A stretch of 64,000 bases of DNA from Nostoc carneum NIES-2107 (GTDB lineage: Bacteria; Cyanobacteriota; Cyanobacteriia; Cyanobacteriales; Nostocaceae), in contig AP018180.1 in the NCBI GenBank assembly GCA_002368155.1, forward strand, positions 2,327,947 through 2,391,946, given 5' to 3'. The notes beneath the pieces are model-generated. The model worked only from the letters and a program-made list of their open reading frames with translations. It made no database searches and had not been told where the DNA came from. A program made the translations under genes and the position numbers. Positions 8,879-22,345 of the stretch are shown one piece after another. Numbering within the stretch: the first letter of the stretch is position 1; every line of letters begins with the position of its first letter.

Positions 8879-11107
8879 ATGGCAAAAAAATTTCCTAAAT
8901 TTAGCCAGGATCTCGCCCAAGATCCGACTACGCGTCGGATTTGGTATGCGATGGCTCAGGGCAATGACTTTGAAAGCCATGATGGTATGACTGAAGAAAA
9001 TCTTTACCAAAAGATTTTCGCGACTCACTTCGGTCATGTGGCAATCATATTTCTATGGGCTTCCAGTCTCCTGTTCCACGTAGCCTGGCAAGGTAACTTT
9101 GAACAGTGGATTAAAGATCCGCTGCATATTCGCCCGATCGCTCATGCGATTTGGGATCCACACTTTGGTAAAGCAGCAGTTGATGCTTTTACCCAAGGTG
9201 GTGCTAGTAATCCAGTAAACATTGCTTATTCTGGGGTTTACCACTGGTGGTATACCATCGGGATGCGGACAAACAATGAGCTCTACATGGGCTCAGTGTT
9301 TTTACTGTTATTAGCAGCATTATTTTTGTTTGCTGGTTGGTTACATCTACAACCAAAGTATCGTCCTAGCCTCGCTTGGTTCAAGAGTGCTGAACCTCGC
9401 CTCAACCATCACTTGGCTGGTTTGTTTGGTGTGAGTTCTTTGGCTTGGGCTGGTCATTTAATTCACGTTGCCATTCCCGAATCTCGTGGTGTTCACGTTG
9501 GTTGGAGAAATTTCCTCACCACCTTGCCTCATCCTGAGGGTTTGACACCTTTGTGGACGGGTAACTGGGGTGCTTATGCTCAAAATCCAGATACACCTGG
9601 GCATTTGTTCGGTACATCTCAAGGTGCAGGGACTGCAATATTGACTTTTTTAGGTGGCTTCCACCCACAGACAGAATCACTGTGGTTGACTGATATGGCT
9701 CATCACCATTTAGCGATCGCTGTGATTTTCATCATCGCGGGTCATATGTACCGGACTAACTTTGGTCTGGGTCACAGCATCAAGGAGATGCTCAACTCCA
9801 GAAAGTTCTTTGGTATCGAAACTGAAGGACAATTTAACCTGCCACACCACGGGCTATATGACACCTACAACAACTCGCTGCACTTCCAGCTGTCTATCCA
9901 CTTAGCAGCCCTAGGTACAGCAGCTTCGTTGGTGGCGCAGCATATGTACTCCCTGCCTCCGTACACCTTTATAGCGAAGGATTACACCACGCAGGCAGCG
10001 TTGTACACCCATCATCAATATATTGCTGGATTCTTGATGATTGGTGCCTTTGCCCATGCCGGCATTTTCTGGATACGGGATTACGATCCAGAGCAAAACA
10101 AAGGCAATGTTCTTGATCGCGTACTCCAACATAAAGAGGCAATTATCTCTCACCTCAGTTGGGTATCGTTATTCTTGGGCTTCCATACTCTGGGTTTGTA
10201 CGTCCATAACGATGTCGTAGTTGCCTTTGGTACTCCAGAAAAGCAAATTCTGATTGAGCCAGTATTTGCCCAGTTCATTCAATCAGCTCACGGTAAAGCA
10301 CTCTATGGCATGAATGCTCTACTATCAAACCCAGATAGTATTGCTTACACAGCTTGGCCAAACCACGGTAACGTTTGGTTATCAGGCTGGTTGAGTGCGA
10401 TTAACTCTGGTAAGAACTCCCTCTTTTTAACTATCGGGCCTGGCGATTTCTTGGTTCACCATGCGATCGCTCTCGGTTTGCACACCACTACCCTAATTTG
10501 TGTTAAGGGTGCGTTGGATGCTCGTGGAACCAAGCTGATGCCCGATAAAAAGGACTTCGGTTTTACCTTCCCCTGTGATGGCCCTGGTCGTGGTGGTACT
10601 TGTCAAACCTCCTCTTGGGAGCAATCCTTCTTCCTGGCTACCTTCTGGATGTTGAACCTGCTAGGCTGGCTAACATTCTACTGGCACTGGAAGCATCTCG
10701 GTATTTGGCAAGGTAACGTTGCTCAGTTCAACGAAAACTCAACTTACCTCATGGGCTGGTTCCGTGATTATCTCTGGGCTAACTCTGCTCAGGTAATTAA
10801 CGGGTACAACCCCTACGGTGTAAATAACCAGTCTGTCTGGGCTTGGATGTTCCTCTTTGGACATCTGGTTTGGGCAACCGGTTTCATGTTCCTCATCGCC
10901 TGGAGAGGTTACTGGCAAGAGTTAATCGAAACTCTAGTATGGGCACACGAACGGACTCCACTTGCTAACCTAGTGCGCTGGAAAGATAAACCTGTGGCAC
11001 TTTCTATTGTTCAAGGTTGGTTAATTGGTCTAGCTCATTTCACAGTTGGCTATGTCCTTACCTTTGCAGCATTCCTGATATCTTCAACTGCTGGTAAATT
11101 TGGCTAA
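8879..11107 (+). CDS. psaB: Photosystem I P700 apoprotein A2 (orphan psaB copy)
   Basis: The 742-residue product is clearly PsaB, the thylakoid core subunit that with PsaA binds P700 and the early electron acceptors. The FX iron-sulfur motif [12 protein letters not shown] supplies Cys566 and Cys575. His662 in [11 protein letters not shown] is the probable axial ligand of P700, and Met670 the probable A0 ligand. Eleven helices and the conserved C-terminus ASTAGKFG-like end (SSTAGKFG) are intact. No psaA precedes it, unlike the usual psaA-psaB operon, so this is probably a second copy, as some Nostocales carry (psaB2). It is about one residue longer than typical PsaB, with an altered stretch ([14 protein letters not shown]) after the FX loop. 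A terminator follows. Confidence 0.97.
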
Positions 11108-11198: not shown

Positions 11199-11240
11199 AT
11201 TACCCAATCCCCAATCCCCAATCCCCAATCCCCAGTCCCT
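11199..11240. repeat. Heptanucleotide tandem repeat (CCCAATC)
   Basis: Consecutive CCCAATC/CCCAGTC units fill the gap between the psaB terminator and the end of the minus-strand GGDEF gene, reaching its stop codon. Confidence 0.75.
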
Positions 11241-12189
11241 AACTAATATGATAACGATTCTTCCCAAATGCTTTTGCCTGATACATTGCCGCATCTGCCT
11301 TGCGTAGTAATTCTTCAGGTAATTTATCGTTTTTCGAGATTGTTGATATGCCAATGCTGACAGAACAAGAGAGATGATGACCGTTGACTAAAACAGGTTG
11401 TTTTAGGGATGCAATTACTTGATTAGCTATCCGAGCCGCACCACGAAAATCTTTGATATCTTCCAACAAAATTACAAATTCATCTCCACCCAGACGGGCG
11501 ATAAAATCTCCCCATCGTAGTTTAGCTTTTAACTTTTTGCTAATTTCAATTAAAAATTTATCTCCGGTATCATGACCAAAGTTATCATTAATGGCCTTAA
11601 ATTCATCTAAGTCTAAAAATAATATCGAATAAAAATAGTTATCATAATGTTGCCTACAGGCGATCGCATAATCTAACTGCTGCATAAAGTAGGCTCGATT
11701 GGGTAATCCTGTTAGAGGATCATGCATCGCAATTCGGCGTAAATTTTCTTCCAACGCTTTGCGCTCTGTGATATCACGAATAATATTTAGTAAATAAGTT
11801 TTTCCTTGCCATTCTAAAAGTTTTACTGATAATAAGCCTATGCGTTTTTCACCATTTTTGAGACAAAATTCAATTTCCAAATTCTCAACGGTTTGTTGAT
11901 TTATGAGCTTTTTTTGAATTTTTGAGTATGTTGCTGTAGTAAATCCCATATCTAACACGGTAATCGGGTAACCAATCACATTCTCGCGACTGTAGCCCGT
12001 TACATTGAGAAATGACTGATTAATCTCTACACAATAACCTTGACTGCGTGTAGTGATTATTATTAAATCAGGAAAGTAATCGATAAATTTAAAATAATTA
12101 TCTGATAATTTGTCAGATTTATGATTTTTTTTAGGCTTTTTATTATCTTGAATTATACCAGCTTTCCAACTAGTATCGATAGATTCCAT
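11239..12189 (-). CDS. PAS-GGDEF diguanylate cyclase
   Basis: The 316-residue cytoplasmic protein has a PAS domain (about 32-142, with FPDLIIITTRSQGYCVEINQ and the C-cap DITERK) and a GGDEF domain (about 150-316). The active-site motif GGDEF is intact at 234-238, and an RxxD inhibitory site (RWGD, 225-228) sits five residues before it, so it should make cyclic di-GMP and be product-inhibited. There is no membrane segment, so the PAS domain would sense a cytoplasmic signal or cofactor. It follows the cyclodehydratase gene by 63 bp on the same strand and may be co-transcribed, though a functional link is not established. Confidence 0.93.
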   Translation of the reverse strand: MESIDTSWKAGIIQDNKKPKKNHKSDKLSDNYFKFIDYFPDLIIITTRSQGYCVEINQSFLNVTGYSRENVIGYPITVLDMGFTTATYSKIQKKLINQQTVENLEIEFCLKNGEKRIGLLSVKLLEWQGKTYLLNIIRDITERKALEENLRRIAMHDPLTGLPNRAYFMQQLDYAIACRQHYDNYFYSILFLDLDEFKAINDNFGHDTGDKFLIEISKKLKAKLRWGDFIARLGGDEFVILLEDIKDFRGAARIANQVIASLKQPVLVNGHHLSCSVSIGISTISKNDKLPEELLRKADAAMYQAKAFGKNRYHIS

Positions 12190-12252: not shown

Positions 12253-14490
12253 CTAAATAAACATAGGAATTGGATTTAGTTGGTCTTCTGTTAATTTTGT
12301 TTTTAACCATCCCAGTTGTACGGGTACATCGTAAAGCCGACCTGGGGCAAACTGTGCCCAAAAATGACGTAAACCAGGAACTACAACTTTAACAACAGCC
12401 ATTCCAATATCTGGACGTGTTTGCTCGAGAACCAATATTTCTAATCCATGTTTAGCTGCTATATCAACACAAGCCAGCACATCTACTTGCAAATCTTGAC
12501 TGTGGTAAACAGGATAGTCTCCGTAAACTTTAGGAATTACATTGGCATCGGGAGCAAGATAAACTTGGTTATTTAATGTTGCTGTTTGGCACCAATTTTG
12601 CATATCCTGACGAGTAAATTTGGCAGAAGAATTTGGATTTGCCCCATTAGAAAGAAATATCATTTGATTCATTTCAGTGACAGCACGTAATAGGGCTACT
12701 TTGGGATGAAAGTGAGTCCCAAAGCCAAACAGAATATCTTCTGGTTGGTGATTGATGCGTCGAGAAATGGCGGCAAAGGTGGGAATATTTAAATCAGTAG
12801 TGAGGTCTAATACCCAAAAATCGCGTCCAATCAATTGATAGTAGCTTTTTAATTTATCCAAATAAGGCTCGTCAAAACTATTTAAATCAACAGCAGGTCT
12901 TTGTAACCGGTTGTACCACCAAATTGCTACTGCATCTCGCTCTACCAACTCCATAAATCCTTGGAGAATAGCTTCTTCTTTACAAGTTCCCGCAGCGGTT
13001 CCATTGGTATCTGCATAACAAAAGCAAGCATCTTCAGCTAAAGGATAGCCATAATAACAATATGCTGTGGGTAGATATTTGAATTGCTGATTGCTGAGCG
13101 ACCAAATGGGAGTCCATTCAATTTCTTGATTGTCATCAAAGGGTACAGGTACCCATTGAATAATCTCATGTTGCTGATTCCAGGTTTGGCGATCGCAATA
13201 TTGATTCGCGCTATAGTGCATACACTCGTAGGGATGAATAGCCTGTTCGCGGAGATTGGTGTAAGCAGCTTTGATTCTTGGTTCTTCTCCCGTATAGGTT
13301 CCACAGTAGCGCTCAATTGCTTCCCCAACAGCACTCATTTTCGCTTGGGCCGCTGTTGTTCCTTTACCAAAGCTTTTTAGGCGCGCTGTCTGGCGTAAAT
13401 CTTCTAACTGTCTACCTTCTTTCGGAAAACTATGCTCTACAACATAAGCATGAATTAAATCGTTCTGGGGAAAAGGTTGAAATAAACTGCTGATAATTCC
13501 TGTAATCGGGCTAATATGATGTTCGTATTTTTGTAAGGCTTTTTCAGGCGCACAGCTGCGATACCCACCATCATCACTCAACGGCTGCTGATGATTTAGC
13601 ACCAATGGTTGAGCTTGGCGTTGACTTAGATAAGTCGGCTCACCACAACAATGACATTGTGGACGACGAACTAAGGTATGGCGTTGCAAGTTAAGATGCA
13701 GCAAATCAAAAGTTAACAGAGTTCCTTCTAAAGGATGTGGTTGTGGGTGACTTAACCATTTAGCAATTTCTGTAGCTGCAAGATTTAACCCAGTGTTGAC
13801 AGTTGAAGGTAAAGCCGCACGGGAAATCGGAAACGAGTTGAGAGTTTGTTGTTGCGCTTGTAAAAAAGACTCAACCCCACGATTCATCCGCAGACGTTGT
13901 GCTAAACATTCCCAACATCCTGTATCTCCAGGTTTAAAGATAGGGCCAATCCAAATTACGCCACCGACTGGCTTGACTAGCAACCAAGAACGCTTTTCTT
14001 GTAAAGCTTCTCGGTTAAAATTTGCCAAATCAGGCTGGAGATAATCATCTGTGACTACAACAGCAAACTTACCAAAATCACCAATGGGAATATTCAGGGA
14101 TTCCAAGATGTTATGCAATGGTTCAGATGTGACATTACCAAATGTGGTAATGCTAACTTTCGATTCTTGGAAACGTTGGCTGACAACGCTAGCATCTTGA
14201 TTCAGCAGTTCCCAAAAAGCTGATGCTCCCAGTGGGATATGATCTGCATTGGTAATATATCCCTTACGTTCCAGTTGTTGTAGTGCGTAGATAATCTCGT
14301 CAGCCGTAGCTTGTCCTTGCAGCTGTTGAGCGATTTCAGCCACAGAGTAAAGCCCGTTGAGTAGTGGTGCTAGTAGGCAATATAAACGCCCATTTAACAC
14401 AAAATGCCCTTTCTCACTTAATAGGAATACAGTTTTAGGAGGAGATATTTCCACATGGAAGTGTGCTTTAAACTTCGGCTGACTAAGCAT
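12253..14490 (-). CDS. RRE/E1-like/YcaO fused cyclodehydratase (azol(in)e RiPP maturation)
   Basis: The 745-residue protein has three parts. Residues 20-80 resemble a RiPP recognition element, a winged-helix that binds leader peptides (FVLNGRLYCLLAPLLNGL ... ALQQLERKGYIT). Residues 90-300 are a degenerate E1-like partner with zinc cysteines Cys192/Cys195 (GCWEC) and Cys279/Cys281/Cys282 (CHCC). Residues 340-745 form a YcaO domain with ATP-binding glutamates in SAVGEAIER (386-394) and a later MELVERDAVA, ending in the proline-bearing tail NPIPMFI typical of azoline-forming YcaOs. Known members turn Cys/Ser/Thr of a peptide into thiazolines or oxazolines using ATP. Two leader-bearing proteins lie just upstream on the same strand and are the best substrate candidates. 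No dehydrogenase or exporter is in view. Confidence 0.9.
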   Translation of the reverse strand: MLSQPKFKAHFHVEISPPKTVFLLSEKGHFVLNGRLYCLLAPLLNGLYSVAEIAQQLQGQATADEIIYALQQLERKGYITNADHIPLGASAFWELLNQDASVVSQRFQESKVSITTFGNVTSEPLHNILESLNIPIGDFGKFAVVVTDDYLQPDLANFNREALQEKRSWLLVKPVGGVIWIGPIFKPGDTGCWECLAQRLRMNRGVESFLQAQQQTLNSFPISRAALPSTVNTGLNLAATEIAKWLSHPQPHPLEGTLLTFDLLHLNLQRHTLVRRPQCHCCGEPTYLSQRQAQPLVLNHQQPLSDDGGYRSCAPEKALQKYEHHISPITGIISSLFQPFPQNDLIHAYVVEHSFPKEGRQLEDLRQTARLKSFGKGTTAAQAKMSAVGEAIERYCGTYTGEEPRIKAAYTNLREQAIHPYECMHYSANQYCDRQTWNQQHEIIQWVPVPFDDNQEIEWTPIWSLSNQQFKYLPTAYCYYGYPLAEDACFCYADTNGTAAGTCKEEAILQGFMELVERDAVAIWWYNRLQRPAVDLNSFDEPYLDKLKSYYQLIGRDFWVLDLTTDLNIPTFAAISRRINHQPEDILFGFGTHFHPKVALLRAVTEMNQMIFLSNGANPNSSAKFTRQDMQNWCQTATLNNQVYLAPDANVIPKVYGDYPVYHSQDLQVDVLACVDIAAKHGLEILVLEQTRPDIGMAVVKVVVPGLRHFWAQFAPGRLYDVPVQLGWLKTKLTEDQLNPIPMFI

Positions 14491-14917: not shown

Positions 14918-15427
14918 TTATTGCTTTAATTCAAGTAATTGTGTTTGCAATTCATTGATTTGAGATGCTTGCTTTTGCACTACATGGTAAAGTGCTTGAA
15001 TCGCGGCAAAAGCTACACCATGAGCATCGACAACATTAATGCTGCGATCGCTCTCACCCAGGTGGAAAGTGGCTGCAAAGTCTTGAGCCATCGGGCCAAT
15101 ATGGCGAACTGTTTGATCTTGGTCTTTGTATTGCCAAGTTGTAATCGGTAACTTAGCGATACCTTGAAGAATAGCGTAGATATCAACCTCAGCTATGGAT
15201 TCTTTGAGATGGCGATCGCTTTTATAGCGGATAGAACCATTGGGGTCATACTCCATATTTAGATTTTTTTGCAGCCCCAGAGCGTTGAGGATACCATTGT
15301 TAGCAGGAATTTCCTGACCTCCTGGATTAATATAACCACAACCTCCAACACAATTTGCTAAATCAGTATCAGTTAATTCGGCAATTAAACTCTCTTGAAT
15401 CAGCAATTCTTGATTTTTACTATCCAT
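14918..15427 (-). CDS. Double-glycine leader protein with C-terminal S74 chaperone domain (1)
   Basis: The 169-residue protein starts with a RiPP-like leader: QESLIAELTDTDLANCVGG, ending in Gly28-Gly29 followed by Cys30. This resembles Nif11/NHLP-type leaders (L(S/T)D--L--V-GG). Residues 30-69 form a short Gly/Asn/Pro-rich segment with no clear fold. From about 58 to 169 is a peptidase S74 / intramolecular chaperone domain, as in phage tail fibres: SDRHLKESI (Ser70-Asp71, Lys75), WQYKDQD, RHIGPMAQDF, and a C-terminal coiled coil (QINELQTQLLELKQ). Such domains trimerise and cut themselves before the Ser-Asp pair. The start has a GGAG 12 nt upstream. It is closely related to the gene at 15611 and next to the YcaO gene. 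Confidence 0.85.
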   Translation of the reverse strand: MDSKNQELLIQESLIAELTDTDLANCVGGCGYINPGGQEIPANNGILNALGLQKNLNMEYDPNGSIRYKSDRHLKESIAEVDIYAILQGIAKLPITTWQYKDQDQTVRHIGPMAQDFAATFHLGESDRSINVVDAHGVAFAAIQALYHVVQKQASQINELQTQLLELKQ

Positions 15428-15610
15428 AATTTATTAACTCCTATCGATAAATTTCTTGTTAAAAGAAGATAATATTCTCTATTTTTTCCTAATTTCTTTT
15501 TACAGATATCAAACAAAGCTATAATGCTGGTTTTAAAAAGATTAAGTCTGTATTTAAAGTCAAAAAATGCTGGTATATTACTGAGAAATGCTAAAAAATC
15601 GATGCAACTA

Positions 15611-16156
15611 CTAAATAATCTGTTGCTTTAACTCAACTAACTGTGTTTGCAGTTGATTAATTTGAGCATCTTGCTTTTGAATTACTTGGTAAAGTGCTTG
15701 AATAGCTGCTAAAGCTACACCATTAGCATCGACAACATTAATAGTGCGATCGCTCTCCCCAACATTGAAAGTAGCTGCAAAGTCTTGAGCCATTGGGCCA
15801 ATATGGCGAATTGTCTCGTCTTGGTCTTTGTATTGCCAGGTAGTAATTGGTAAACTGGCAATACCCTGAAGAATGCTGTGGACATCAGCCTCAACTACAG
15901 CTTCTTTGACATTGCGATCGCTTATATAGCGCCTTGAGCCATTAGGATCGTAAGAGATGCCTAAAAAGGTGATTTTGAGCTTGGTTTCTCCTAATAGTGG
16001 CAGTTCATATAACGGCACTTGTGCAACTTTATCGTTGCTAGAAGTAATCTGAATATCACAGCCACCAACATAATCTGCTAATTGCTCATCACTTAAATCC
16101 TCAAGTAAAGATTCTGTCACGCTCAAATTTTGAGGGTTCACATCCATATTATTCAT
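15611..16156 (-). CDS. Double-glycine leader protein with C-terminal S74 chaperone domain (2)
   Basis: I chose the ATG at 16154-16156 (181 residues); TTG and GTG codons just upstream are weaker. The leader VTESLLEDLSDEQLADYVGG ends in a double Gly followed by Cys33. A variable segment of about 46 residues follows, unlike that of the paralogue, with Ser/Thr residues (ITSSND) and a Leu/Pro stretch. The last 110 residues are nearly the same S74 domain: YDPNGS, SDRNVKEAV (Ser79-Asp80), RHIGPMAQDF, and coiled coil QINQLQTQLVELKQ. The usual Arg of the SDxRLK motif is Asn here and His in the paralogue. The pattern of conserved leader, divergent core and conserved tail is what a precursor family shows. 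Confidence 0.85.
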   Translation of the reverse strand: MNNMDVNPQNLSVTESLLEDLSDEQLADYVGGCDIQITSSNDKVAQVPLYELPLLGETKLKITFLGISYDPNGSRRYISDRNVKEAVVEADVHSILQGIASLPITTWQYKDQDETIRHIGPMAQDFAATFNVGESDRTINVVDANGVALAAIQALYQVIQKQDAQINQLQTQLVELKQQII

Positions 16157-16784: not shown

Positions 16785-19448
16785 CTAATTGCTAGAACAG
16801 CTAGCTGAGTTGAGTCCAGAACTATGAGGAGTAGTGGCTGGTGCGTTTGCTGTTAATAACATTTCGCCTTGAGGAGTAATCACCAGTCCCTGAGCTTCTA
16901 CAATCTCATTGGCAGTCGGCGATGGTAAATTTATAGGAGTGGCAATCTGCCCAGAGCGATCGCTGTTTGTGAGAATCGGAACTGTTTGGATATCTTCTAA
17001 AATTGTGTCACCCCCCAATGCTACCTCTGGATTTTGGGGTAAACCACCCCGTCCCGTGACAACGAAACGGCTAGATTGACTGGGTTGATTCTGACCACAG
17101 CCTTGAGTAATTAATGATGAAGCATCATTTGGCTGTACTGGTAAGGTAACAATCCCTTTGCTAGGGTCAACGGCTAGAGTTTTAATTTCTACAGCACCAT
17201 TTAACCCAAACTGAGAACTAGCTGTAATATCGCTTTCAGGTGTGAGTTGTGGGCGGAATTCAATACCAAAGATACCTTGAGTTGTAATTTGAACGTTCCC
17301 CCCTTGACCTTGAATTGCATTAGCTGTGATGTCGCTATTTTCTGCAGCTGCTAATAAATTGGCACTAATAGTAATATTGCCACCATTGCCATTACCACCT
17401 GTAGCATCAGTAGTAATCTTGCTACCGTTACGCATCAACAAAACATCTTTTATTTGTAAAGTGATATTACCGCCTTCACCTGATTTAGTTGTGGCTTGAA
17501 TTCCACCTGCATCATGTAGTGGGTTACCTGCATTATCAAGCAAGATTGAGTTGGCGTTAATGTTAATGTTGCCACCTTTACCCAATCCTTCATTATCAAC
17601 ACTTACCCTAGCTCCTGCTTGAACTAAGAATTTGCCTGTATTAATTTCTACGTTACCGGCATCGTTTTTATTATTACTGTTTAAAACATTAGCAAATAGG
17701 CTACTAAATATGAAAGTGGCATCAATTTCGGGGTCTAATGGCTCATTTTCAGGCAGTCCAGTACCTAATAACTGAATCAATTTGGTTGCGTTAATATTCA
17801 TTGTGCCTACCTTACCCAAACCCTGTGTACCTACACTAATTGTGGCTCCATTTTGGATGGTTAAATTATTGGTATTAATTGTTAAATTTCCAGCATCACC
17901 TGTAGAATAAATATCCCCACTACTAAACACACCTCCAGCATATTTCTTGATGGGAGAAACTCCATTGACATTGATATAATCGCTGGCATTAAGAATGATA
18001 TTGCCACCATTGCCTTCAGCCAATGTTCCAGAAAAAATTTGCGCTCCATCGCTGATTATTAGCTGTCCAGTATTAACGATTAAATCGCCTGCTTGTCCGC
18101 TACCTTCTTGCACGGAAGTATACAAACCACTAGCGAGAATATCAGCAGGTGAAACACCTAACAATTCAACGGATTTTGTGGCATTGACTGTTAAATTGCC
18201 GCCTTTGGCATTACTCAAAGTTGCAGCAGATAGTTGTGCTCCATTTTTAACAGTTAACTTGCCAGTATTAACAGTTAAATTGCCTCCTGCACCATGACCG
18301 AATGTATCTGTGACTAACCCAGTAGCCACAGCTTCATCTAATGAGTCAACACCACTCAGTTCAATTGTATCCGCAGCATTAATAGTTATATCTCCTCCCT
18401 TACCTAGGGAGTCAGGTAAAGTGACTGTTGAGATTCGAGCTTCGCCTTCAACCTGAAGTTTATTAGTATTGATGGTGATTCCTAAGCTATCACCACTGCC
18501 ATTGTTTTCTGCAAACAACCCATCCGTAAAGGTTTGAGTATTGCGATCGCTTTTGACAATCACCGCATCGGAAGCATTTAAAAGCAAGTTTGCGCCTGAA
18601 ATTTCACCTAATGTAAAAGTAGATATGCGAGAGTTCTCAATAGTTAAATTTTTTCCTGTGAGTTGAATAATACCGCCGCCACTGCCGCTAGTTGTTACTA
18701 AACTATTATTACTAATTAATACATTAGCCCTCGCCAAATCCTGAGGAAAACTCAATTGTGGTTGGCTTCCTATCCATGAAAGCTCAACCATTCCTGAATC
18801 TGCTACTCCACCTAACTCAATATGACCGCTATTGGCAATTAATTTACTGTTATTTATAGTTAGATCGCCACCTATTAAAGCTAGCATTTGATATTTTGAA
18901 ATTGTTAGATTAGCGCCATTGACTTCAATAGATGATGCTTTACTGCCATACTGTAATCCAATAGGGACGCTGACAGTTAGTAAGGGCGGATTTCCATCAG
19001 TTGATGTATGAAATTCTTTACCATCAGCAAATTTTATACTGTTGGCTGTGGTCGCAAAAAATGAACCACCAATGTCTAATTTTGCATGAGAACCAAAGAT
19101 AATTCCATTAGGATTAATTAAGAAAAGATTAGCTTTACCAAGAGTCCGAATTCTGCCATCGATCAACGAAGGTTCTAGACTAGTAATACGACTAATAATA
19201 TTTTGAATAGAGAGATTATTATTAAAATTAGCAGACCCACCAGTTGGTACAGAAAATTCGCTAAAACTATGAAAAAGATTTCCTCCAACTTGGCTACCGC
19301 CATTAATCGTAAAATTGAGGCGATCGCTAGATTTAACTATTGTCGGTAAAGTACCATCGGCTGCAATCTGAGCATCACAAGTGTGTGCAAATGTGAGATT
19401 ACAAATACTAAATATTCCCGCAATACTAATAGCACAATACCAATTCAT
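16785..19448 (-). CDS. Two-partner-secretion filamentous haemagglutinin-like adhesin
   Basis: From the ATG at 19446-19448 the product is 887 residues. A longer frame opens at a TTG (19640), but the first ATG begins a good Sec signal peptide (MNWYCAISIAGIFSICNLTFA, cut near DAQ). After it comes a TPS secretion domain (haemagg_act): QIAADGTLPTIV, a FHSFSEFSVPTGGSANF stretch, IQNIISRITS, and LFLINPNGIIFG. The rest is a repetitive right-handed beta-helix with GGNLTVN/GGNITIN repeats. Such proteins pass the outer membrane through a TpsB/Omp85 partner, which is not in this window. The C-terminus is Pro/Thr-rich and ends SCSSN. Confidence 0.9.
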   Translation of the reverse strand: MNWYCAISIAGIFSICNLTFAHTCDAQIAADGTLPTIVKSSDRLNFTINGGSQVGGNLFHSFSEFSVPTGGSANFNNNLSIQNIISRITSLEPSLIDGRIRTLGKANLFLINPNGIIFGSHAKLDIGGSFFATTANSIKFADGKEFHTSTDGNPPLLTVSVPIGLQYGSKASSIEVNGANLTISKYQMLALIGGDLTINNSKLIANSGHIELGGVADSGMVELSWIGSQPQLSFPQDLARANVLISNNSLVTTSGSGGGIIQLTGKNLTIENSRISTFTLGEISGANLLLNASDAVIVKSDRNTQTFTDGLFAENNGSGDSLGITINTNKLQVEGEARISTVTLPDSLGKGGDITINAADTIELSGVDSLDEAVATGLVTDTFGHGAGGNLTVNTGKLTVKNGAQLSAATLSNAKGGNLTVNATKSVELLGVSPADILASGLYTSVQEGSGQAGDLIVNTGQLIISDGAQIFSGTLAEGNGGNIILNASDYINVNGVSPIKKYAGGVFSSGDIYSTGDAGNLTINTNNLTIQNGATISVGTQGLGKVGTMNINATKLIQLLGTGLPENEPLDPEIDATFIFSSLFANVLNSNNKNDAGNVEINTGKFLVQAGARVSVDNEGLGKGGNININANSILLDNAGNPLHDAGGIQATTKSGEGGNITLQIKDVLLMRNGSKITTDATGGNGNGGNITISANLLAAAENSDITANAIQGQGGNVQITTQGIFGIEFRPQLTPESDITASSQFGLNGAVEIKTLAVDPSKGIVTLPVQPNDASSLITQGCGQNQPSQSSRFVVTGRGGLPQNPEVALGGDTILEDIQTVPILTNSDRSGQIATPINLPSPTANEIVEAQGLVITPQGEMLLTANAPATTPHSSGLNSASCSSN

Positions 19449-19712
19449 AAAAGTAAAATTTCTTAAAGTCTGGATTTGCCTCTCCTTCAGTATTCCCGGA
19501 ATACCTGAAACTATTGCAAGCAACAGAGGTAAAAGTAAAAAGACTCTTTTAGGGATTTTATGGCTAATTTTCGCGGAAATCTTGATTATTTCGTGATAGC
19601 AAGAGCCAAGACTATAAAAATTGTCCTCAATAATGATCAAGGCACAACATTGTTGTGCCTTTAGCTATGTATTTCGTTTACCTAAAAAACAGTGTATGGG
19701 TAAGCTGATTAT

Positions 19713-20650: not shown

Positions 20651-22345
20651 CTAAAGAATTCCAAATACTGAGCCGACAGTAGATTTAATCGAATCCCTAG
20701 CATCCTTCAAAGTTTGGGCTATAGGATGTTTAGTTTGCAAGAATACCCGTGCACAATTACGACCTGGCATACCAGAGATTGAACCACCGGGATGTGTGCC
20801 AGCACCAGTTAAAAAGAGGTTATCAATTGGTGTTTTGTAGTTGGCTATTTCTGGTAAGGGACGGAAAAATACCATTTGATCTAGTGTCATATCAATGTGG
20901 TAATAATTCCCTTTGTAAGCACCTAGCCTTTCTCCTAATTCTGCAGGACTTTCTACGCGACGGGCGATAGTTGCTGTTTTCACATTTGGTGCATAGGTTG
21001 CTAACTTATCAACTACCTTATCTGCAACTTGATTTTTTAATTCATCAGTCCAACCTGTACCTTTTAAACCTGTACCTTCTGCACCAGCAATTTGATAGGG
21101 AGCAAAAAATTCAATCCATACTGTATGCTTACCTGGTGGTGCTAATGTGGGATCTAAAGCGCTAGGCATCACTACATACATTGATGGATCAGAATCTGGG
21201 ATTTCTCCTAAAGTACATTTACTATGGGCTTGTTCAACATGAGCTACAGAATCGGCAATTAAGATAGAACCAATGAGATATTCATCTTTGTGTTCATGGT
21301 AAGGAAAACGCAAGGGTTCATCTAAGGCTAAATCTATTTTGAGAATAGTTTCGTTATTGTTAACAATGCGGCGTTCTAATCTTTCCCACAAATCTGGATC
21401 GACTGCATCAATATCAGTTTTATCAGTCATTTGCAAGAATAAACGCTTGGCATCAATATTAGAAATTACCCCATATTTAGCTCGATATTCTTTACCGCCA
21501 GCAACGCGTACACCCACTGCTTTTTTATCATCAATCAACACTTTTTCTACGTGCTGGTCTGTGAGAATTACGCCGCCTTTACTTGTAACTAAATTCACTA
21601 AAGCTTTGACAAGTGCGCCAGTACCACCGCGAGGTCTAGCCATACCAGGATTGTGACGCATTGCCATCATAATTGCACCAATCGCAATAGTTTTTTGTGA
21701 TGGTGGCGCACCCAGTTCTGCTGCTAGCCTCGCTAAGGGTGCTTTGAGAAACTCTTCATCAAACCATTCGTTAAGTAAATCTTCCGCGCTGGTCATCATG
21801 TTGCGAATAAAGTCCAGCGTTTTATTCGGGGAACCAATGACAGAAAATAAATCTTTGATTTTCGTGATGTCGTAATTACCAGCAATATCAATAATCGACT
21901 TTGGAGGAGCATTAAACATAGGAATCATAGCACCTAATGCTCGTTGCCAATAGTCGGTAAATTCGGCGTATTTTTTAGCATCACGTTCGTTATAACGCGC
22001 GATTTCTGCACAGGTTTTTTCGAGAGATTTGTGAGCTAAAAAATATTTACCATCTGGATGGGGACAGAAAACTACTGGATCGCATTCCAGATATTCCAAA
22101 CCATATTTTTCTAATTCTAATTCTTCAACAACTGGCCCTAAATGTATAAATTCGTGGTCAATGGCACATAAATTAAATTTAAATCCAGGTGCTTCTTGTG
22201 GTAAACATTCTTCAGTGGTAGCTGCACCACCAGGAACAGAACGCTTTTCTAATAGCAGGACACTATAGCCAGCTTTTAGTAAATAGGCAGCACATACTAA
22301 ACCGTTATGTCCTGCACCGATAATCACAACATCGTACTCTTGCAT
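20651..22345 (-). CDS. crtO: CrtO-type beta-carotene ketolase
   Basis: The 564-residue flavoprotein has an N-terminal dinucleotide-binding motif (VVIIGAGHNGLVCAAYLL) and the phytoene-desaturase-family C-terminal FAD motif (NLFLTGAGTHPGGSISGMPGRNCA). Long stretches, such as CAIDHEFIHLGPV, RLAAELGAPPSQK and HTVWIEFFAPYQIAG, match what I recall of Synechocystis CrtO, which introduces a keto group into beta-carotene to make echinenone. This is distinct from the non-heme CrtW ketolases. It would act at membranes. The DUF2993 gene lies 80 bp upstream on the same strand and may be co-transcribed. A more general CrtI-like oxidoreductase role is the alternative. Confidence 0.85.
   Translation of the reverse strand: MQEYDVVIIGAGHNGLVCAAYLLKAGYSVLLLEKRSVPGGAATTEECLPQEAPGFKFNLCAIDHEFIHLGPVVEELELEKYGLEYLECDPVVFCPHPDGKYFLAHKSLEKTCAEIARYNERDAKKYAEFTDYWQRALGAMIPMFNAPPKSIIDIAGNYDITKIKDLFSVIGSPNKTLDFIRNMMTSAEDLLNEWFDEEFLKAPLARLAAELGAPPSQKTIAIGAIMMAMRHNPGMARPRGGTGALVKALVNLVTSKGGVILTDQHVEKVLIDDKKAVGVRVAGGKEYRAKYGVISNIDAKRLFLQMTDKTDIDAVDPDLWERLERRIVNNNETILKIDLALDEPLRFPYHEHKDEYLIGSILIADSVAHVEQAHSKCTLGEIPDSDPSMYVVMPSALDPTLAPPGKHTVWIEFFAPYQIAGAEGTGLKGTGWTDELKNQVADKVVDKLATYAPNVKTATIARRVESPAELGERLGAYKGNYYHIDMTLDQMVFFRPLPEIANYKTPIDNLFLTGAGTHPGGSISGMPGRNCARVFLQTKHPIAQTLKDARDSIKSTVGSVFGIL

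Follow-up and report, generated by a model that had tools for sequence, protein, structure and literature searches.

Why should two small, adjacent proteins that look like the precursors of modified peptides end in an S74 domain, a type of domain found in phage endosialidases and tail fibres and in the protein MyRF? This question is raised by a locus of the cyanobacterium Nostoc carneum NIES-2107 (Nostocaceae), in the 64,000-nucleotide stretch analysed here (contig AP018180.1, positions 2,327,947 to 2,391,946; assembly GCA_002368155.1), referred to below as the window. Read along the minus strand, the locus comprises a gene for a TpsA-type exoprotein, the genes for precursors A and B, a gene for a fused cyclodehydratase and a gene for a PAS-GGDEF protein (Table 1). 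Precursors A and B are 65% identical overall, with a common 29-residue leader ending in VGG, unlike cores of 46 and 40 residues, and near-identical S74 ends; a preliminary description of this DNA had recognized the common leader, the unlike middles and the S74 ends. To our knowledge, the precursors of ribosomally synthesized and post-translationally modified peptides (RiPPs) nearly always consist of a leader and a core, and are trimmed by separate proteases. The architecture and linkage of the genes described here are firmly established. The answer that the sequences make probable is that the locus encodes a two-peptide RiPP, A plus B, the maturation of which would combine leader binding at an L(X)4L motif, azoline formation, a self-cutting S74 tail and export by a C39-type transporter.

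The first part of this answer comes from the linkage between precursors and enzyme. In a sample of 217 genomes of the window's family, searched with leader-plus-core, enzyme and S74 profiles, the leader-plus-core profile matched 20 genomes, 14 of them strongly (E 1.7e-23 or better); the other six matches, weak and partial (G358, G360, G398, G240, G409 and G417, our own genome numbers; E 6e-5 to 9e-4, 30–50 of 75 positions), were left out of the count. The enzyme profile matched 117 genomes, 14 of which stand apart at 1353–1586 bits, the next score being 1140, and these are the same 14 genomes, in every one of which the two genes are neighbours on one strand. This pairing is not due to chance. 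The co-occurrence with YcaO that the preliminary description had proposed to look for in relatives is, thus, complete in the family sample, and the situation that would have spoken against it, S74-type precursors widespread without the enzyme, was not encountered, none of the sampled genomes without this YcaO clade having a strong leader match. S74 domains as such were found in 40 of the 217 genomes, and were borne by the precursor in ten of these 40. The window's own genome (G000; 9.36 Mb, four contigs) has two S74 matches, A and B, and one YcaO match, the fused enzyme. In a sample of 291 genomes of the order, eight matched an S74-precursor profile, three of them (G000, G003 and G077) through the leader and five through the S74 end only; G003, which belongs to another family, has a leader-S74 gene directly before its YcaO gene. 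Enzyme scores above 1150 bits were obtained in this sample for G000, G077, G003, G026 and G002. G026, with the same enzyme coordinates as locus L058, has an adjacent S74-less precursor, whereas the related YcaO gene of G002 lies at a contig edge, and its precursor cannot be seen because the contig ends there. The leader-core profile matched four of 388 genomes in a sample of the class (G000, G077, G003 and, weakly, G240); it misses some members, since G026 is not among its matches. A contig scan with the enzyme alignment yielded 11 loci, ten with a whole enzyme, from many of the same strains as the genome samples, so the two sources are not independent.

Altogether, 17 distinct loci, those of the 14 genomes and three others, form a single enzyme clade with respect to eight outgroup enzymes (branch support 100/100), the nearby precursor candidates of which are, by eye, of other types, mostly Nif11-like or double-glycine (GG). 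The tree was built with a wide YcaO filter, which did not pick up locus L131, and L063, a 3.9-kb fragment with a partial enzyme, was left out. The open reading frames (ORFs) of precursor and enzyme are separated by 45–551 bp in 14 of 15 loci and by 1414 bp in one; an unrelated ORF of 146 residues lies on the opposite strand within the latter gap (L132:8534-8974, genome G459). This tight spacing, together with the one-to-one pairing seen in all 14 genomes and the full-length similarity of the enzyme to LynD, TruD and MusD, makes it very unlikely that YcaO acts on another substrate, or is inactive, and stands beside the S74 genes incidentally, an explanation that could draw on the small number of cyclizable residues in B cores and on the existence of orphan S74-less precursor genes away from YcaO. 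One such orphan, B-like, is found in the window's own genome outside the window (L047:6105-6377, at G000:C1:5562104; GGCGWYN...YDPNGSARYKFY), distant from YcaO and adjoining genes that resemble, by eye, those of ribosomal proteins L35 and L20. Similar frames of 90–93 residues match in G303, G304, G305 and G308. Orphan precursors of this type may be modified in trans.

The enzyme itself points to the chemistry. The preliminary description had read it as a fusion of RiPP recognition element (RRE), E1-like and YcaO parts, and Pfam and NCBIfam bear this out: an RRE-type winged helix (PF21084, residues 7–80) is followed by a leader-binding, E1-like domain of thiazole/oxazole-modified microcin (TOMM) systems (TIGR03882, residues 167–333; 167 bits, cut-off 36.9) and by a YcaO/SagD domain (PF02624; TIGR03604, 276 bits, cut-off 219). 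In a profile search of solved structures, MusD, LynD and TruD ranked first, LynD and TruD aligning over positions 7–744 of a 746-position profile. The YcaO (D) and E1-like/RRE (C) cyclodehydratase beside a precursor with a recognizable leader is the combination typical of TOMM azoline pathways, and the enzyme is a cyclodehydratase of the LynD/TruD/PatD type, as in cyanobactin clusters. The PatE leader binds the RRE of LynD through L(X)4L, and the same two leucines matter for MprC (PMC12455567). By homology, the RRE of the LynD-like enzyme would bind each precursor at the same leader motif: L(X)4[L/I] occurs within the 11 residues preceding GG in all 22 aligned leaders, the pattern being a loose one. 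Searched at E 0.1 against Pfam and NCBIfam, A and B match no leader family, NHLP and Nif11 included (each library gave a single weak, unrelated hit); two S74-less precursors likewise match none in NCBIfam at 1e-6. Cyanobactin maturation involves proteases of the S8 type. No PatA/PatG-type S8 protease gene lies near the YcaO gene in the window's own genome, the one searched with PF00082, and the locus is not a standard cyanobactin cluster, because all eight S8 matches of that genome lie more than 440 kb away. The RiPP reading of the preliminary description is, thus, strengthened by the co-occurrence with YcaO, the L(X)4L leader and the LynD/TruD/MusD-type enzyme; its azoline and its cleavage are still predictions.

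The cores, in turn, indicate where the enzyme might act. They are 40–63 residues long (40–54 on S74 precursors) and single, with no cassette repeats visible by eye. The residue following GG is a Cys in 16 of 22 cores, a Thr in five and not cyclizable in one. At the end of each core stands a motif resembling DPNGSxR[YF], of which the Ser and the Arg are invariant (22/22) and the other positions variable; in S74 precursors, the Ser of SDRxxK follows after a few residues. An azoline would be formed in the core at Gly-Cys/Thr or Gly-Ser, that is, in B numbering, at Cys30 after GG or at Ser65 of DPNGSxR[YF]. In the case of the window's locus, L053, L054 and G308, the B core has no Cys, Ser or Thr besides the post-GG residue and the motif Ser; the remaining S74-bearing B precursors have one to four additional ones in their cores. 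The modification site of the window's B is, therefore, nearly pinned down: if this core is cyclodehydrated, it should be at Cys30 or Ser65, because there are only two cyclizable residues. Precursors without S74 keep the leader, core and motif, and their stop codon lies 3–8 residues beyond the motif; the motif cannot be only a docking site for S74, since it persists without it.

The S74 tail is matched by Pfam in both precursors (PF13884: B, 1.8e-12, 47.8 bits; A, 9.8e-11, 42.2 bits; cut-off 22). SDRxxKE is kept in all 21 S74 precursors examined, four of which (those of G303 and G308) had been selected by this pattern, and the Lys at Ser+5 has the same spacing as the catalytic Ser-Lys dyads, five residues apart, of MyRF (S587/K592) and phage endoNF (S911/K916) (PMC8326128). 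The cleavage of MyRF requires a trimer (PMC8326128). By analogy, S74 and the C-terminal helix would trimerize the precursors, and S74 would cut itself off through the dyad just before SDRxxK, leaving the leader and core joined, with a C-terminus set a short distance beyond DPNGS. The preliminary description had named a coiled coil here, and the C-terminal end resembles one by eye; a long single helix (B residues 135–168) is predicted by a model that is otherwise of low confidence. When the S74 precursors were searched against PDB sequences, nothing significant was found, the best match (E 0.087) being a Mediator subunit aligned to the C-terminal helix. None of 105 stretches from a single scan of viral contigs with two short patterns is a relative, which still allows a viral origin. 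The ratio of non-synonymous to synonymous substitutions (dN/dS), calculated for nine pairs, is 0.02–0.33 for S74 and 0.17–0.48 for the core, with S74 below the core in seven pairs; by these ratios, S74 is under purifying selection where present. Within the window's subgroup, the S74 domains of A and B group together (87/83) in a tree with mostly weak forks (4 of 18 starred), and there is a hint of gene conversion between them. A and B might co-trimerize through their matched S74 domains and be modified while held, the trimer then cutting itself and releasing both peptides with exact C-termini; this is tentative and rather doubtful. It is just as speculative that S74 might serve in such a co-trimer as a built-in, protease-free follower and as a quality check, passing only assembled, and perhaps only modified, precursors.

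Is the tail a part of the product? S74 is borne by the precursor in 12 of the 17 loci and is absent from five; the enzyme tree requires no fewer than three switches between presence and absence, three gains or three losses fitting it equally well. In one S74-less locus, L056, the remains of an S74 domain, with internal stops and a change of frame, come after the precursor stop, five codons beyond the predicted cut, and are matched by S74 alone at E 4e-9. This relic favours loss at L056, where S74 would have been lost and the front part kept. The front part, thus, appears to be the product and S74 a tail that can be removed, since the domain comes and goes while the core stays. The preliminary description had proposed a chaperone or display tag: the display tag is argued against by these changes and by the relic, and the chaperone is retained, as a self-removing tail at the C-terminus that would act as chaperone or in timing, S74-less lineages ending the gene near the would-be cut. 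Alternatively, S74 may trimerize yet stay uncut in vivo, with A and B as small trimeric surface or fibre proteins displayed together with TpsA and stabilized or anchored by the YcaO-made change. This would suit the TpsA gene that neighbours the precursors, on the side away from the enzyme and divergent in two loci, wherever flanks are readable (15/15), the PAS-GGDEF neighbour of seven loci, the core of A, which appears strand-rich by eye, and the lower dN/dS of S74 in seven of nine pairs; we nevertheless judge it unlikely, given that the catalytic Ser and Lys are kept in 21 of 21 precursors and that five of 17 loci have no S74, one of them with a clear relic, yet keep the core. The window's own genome holds 30 TPS matches, 12 of which form a dense exoprotein array of about 39 kb outside the window (G000:C1:2837757-2876642).

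For the removable-tail reading, the last step would be the trimming of the leader and the export of the core by a C39-type, GG-cutting ABC exporter. C39-type ABC genes lie within 10 kb in L055, L058, L059 and L062 (the C39 domain itself was scanned in L055 and L058), and the locus of G003 has an NHLP-type HlyD gene (381 bits, cut-off 156) and an ABC subunit, bringing C39-type or NHLP export genes to five of 15 loci. In L045 and L064 (G003, contig C47), the exporter is apparently an NHLP ABC1-ABC2 fusion, read as two overlapping stretches. The peptides may act as a two-peptide toxin, as a signal, or in adhesion or biofilm formation. In a variant that overlaps with our proposal and shares its mechanism, A and B would be small secreted GG-leader proteins resembling EbfG, with one YcaO-made change, serving adhesion or biofilm formation rather than antibiosis. 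GG leaders and a C39 exporter serve biofilm formation in Synechococcus elongatus (EbfG; PMC4997328), and the TpsA and GGDEF neighbours would suit such a role; the likeness to EbfG is an analogy and the role putative, and this variant is a real possibility, if somewhat short of probable.

Several points weigh against the self-cutting RiPP proposed here. It is drawn from genes, with modification, cleavage and product all predicted. The AlphaFold model of precursor B is too poor to use (mean pLDDT 43.9), and the alignment of one profile (A4) to MyRF, although in dyad register, is not significant by itself (E 0.62). L056 has the sole standalone relic among the five S74-less loci: none was found downstream in L057, L058 or L135, and the S74 trace in L062 is seen only where the leader-core match extends into it and is not significant by S74 alone. 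The [YF] after the motif Arg is absent from L045, L058, L132 and L133, and L058 also has a motif reading DPNQS and is the locus in which the residue after GG cannot be cyclized. An azole peptide would be expected to be richer in Cys, Ser and Thr than these cores. The window's locus has no exporter nearby, a C39-ABC gene 85% identical being located elsewhere in the genome, unlinked. Finally, cyclization of Cys30 onto the preceding Gly would block GG cleavage, so that modification and leader removal are compatible only if Ser65 is the site; we infer that Ser65 fits export better, because a heterocycle at Cys30 would consume the Gly-Cys bond that a GG peptidase cuts.

Table 1. Features of the locus, in window coordinates.
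Feature	Position	Strand	Remarks
TpsA-type exoprotein (TPS domain)	16785..19640	-	Adjoins precursors in 15/15 loci with readable flanks
Precursor A, whole ORF	15611-16156	-	ORF call
Precursor A leader, 29 residues, ends VGG, holds L(X)4L (L-S-D-E-Q-L)	16061..16147	-	Start from orthologues
Precursor A core, 46 residues, CDIQ...YDPNGSRRYI	15923..16060	-	
Precursor A S74 domain and C-terminal helix	15614..15922	-	PF13884, SDRxxK; stop codon 15611-15613
Precursor A predicted cut, before Ser of SDRNVK	15920-15922	-	
Precursor B, whole ORF, 169 residues	14918-15427	-	ORF call
Precursor B leader, 29 residues, ends VGG, L(X)4L present	15341..15427	-	
Precursor B core, 40 residues	15221..15340	-	
Precursor B Cys30	15338-15340	-	
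Precursor B Ser65 of DPNGS	15233-15235	-	
Precursor B S74 domain and C-terminal helix	14921..15220	-	Predicted cut before Ser of SDRHLK; stop codon 14918-14920
Fused RRE/E1-like/YcaO cyclodehydratase, 745 residues, C-terminus NPIPMFI	12253..14490	-	Pfam, NCBIfam, LynD/TruD/MusD homology
PAS-GGDEF protein	11239..12189	-	Directly 3' of YcaO gene in 7/15 loci

The start of most precursor A orthologues corresponds to the ATG at 16147, and the in-frame ATG at 16156 is also possible. Beyond the PAS-GGDEF gene, a psaB-like gene (by eye; 8879-11107) seems to stand alone, its motif occurring once in the window; a homologue also lies 3' of the GGDEF gene in L055 and L059. On the other side, a gene for a CrtO-type beta-carotene ketolase (20651-22345; 1118 bits, cut-off 1000) has a counterpart in a similar neighbourhood position in L053 and L054.

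Among known systems, the locus resembles the cyanobactins in that it has the same fused RRE/E1-like/YcaO layout and C-terminal NP-x-(P/S) as LynD, TruD and MusD (PDB 4v1t, 4bs9 and 7u58) and the same L(X)4L as cyanobactin precursors, but it differs from them in its GG leader, its 40–63-residue cores, its S74 tail and, in the window's own genome, the lack of a nearby PatA/PatG-type S8 gene. The GG leader and the export genes of five loci are shared with cyanobacterial RiPPs of the NHLP, Nif11 and bacteriocin types, from which the short leader (about 29 residues), without a leader-family match, and the S74 tail set it apart. With the S74/ICA domains it shares the PF13884 match, the Lys at Ser+5 and, in a low-confidence model, the long C-terminal helix, the passenger here being a leader and a 40–54-residue core rather than a fibre or a DNA-binding protein. 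Bottromycin-type followers are likewise C-terminal precursor parts that need removal; they are cut by a separate amidohydrolase (PMC10885120), whereas the S74 tail carries a catalytic dyad of its own. No title among the literature matches listed from open-licence literature pointed to S74-tailed RiPP precursors, and such a tail is not described in the passages considered from PMC4603692, PMC3140520, PMC10885120 and PMC4997328. The system is, thus, best regarded as a cyanobactin-related, GG-leader RiPP, in which the S74 tail would be the new element. It is a small one: a single enzyme, two precursors, one predicted cut and, in B, two residues as candidates for modification. If the proposal is correct, a trimerizing, self-excising C-terminal precursor domain would add a new logic to RiPP maturation, provide a protease-free route to modified peptides with set ends, and give S74 domains a new kind of passenger.
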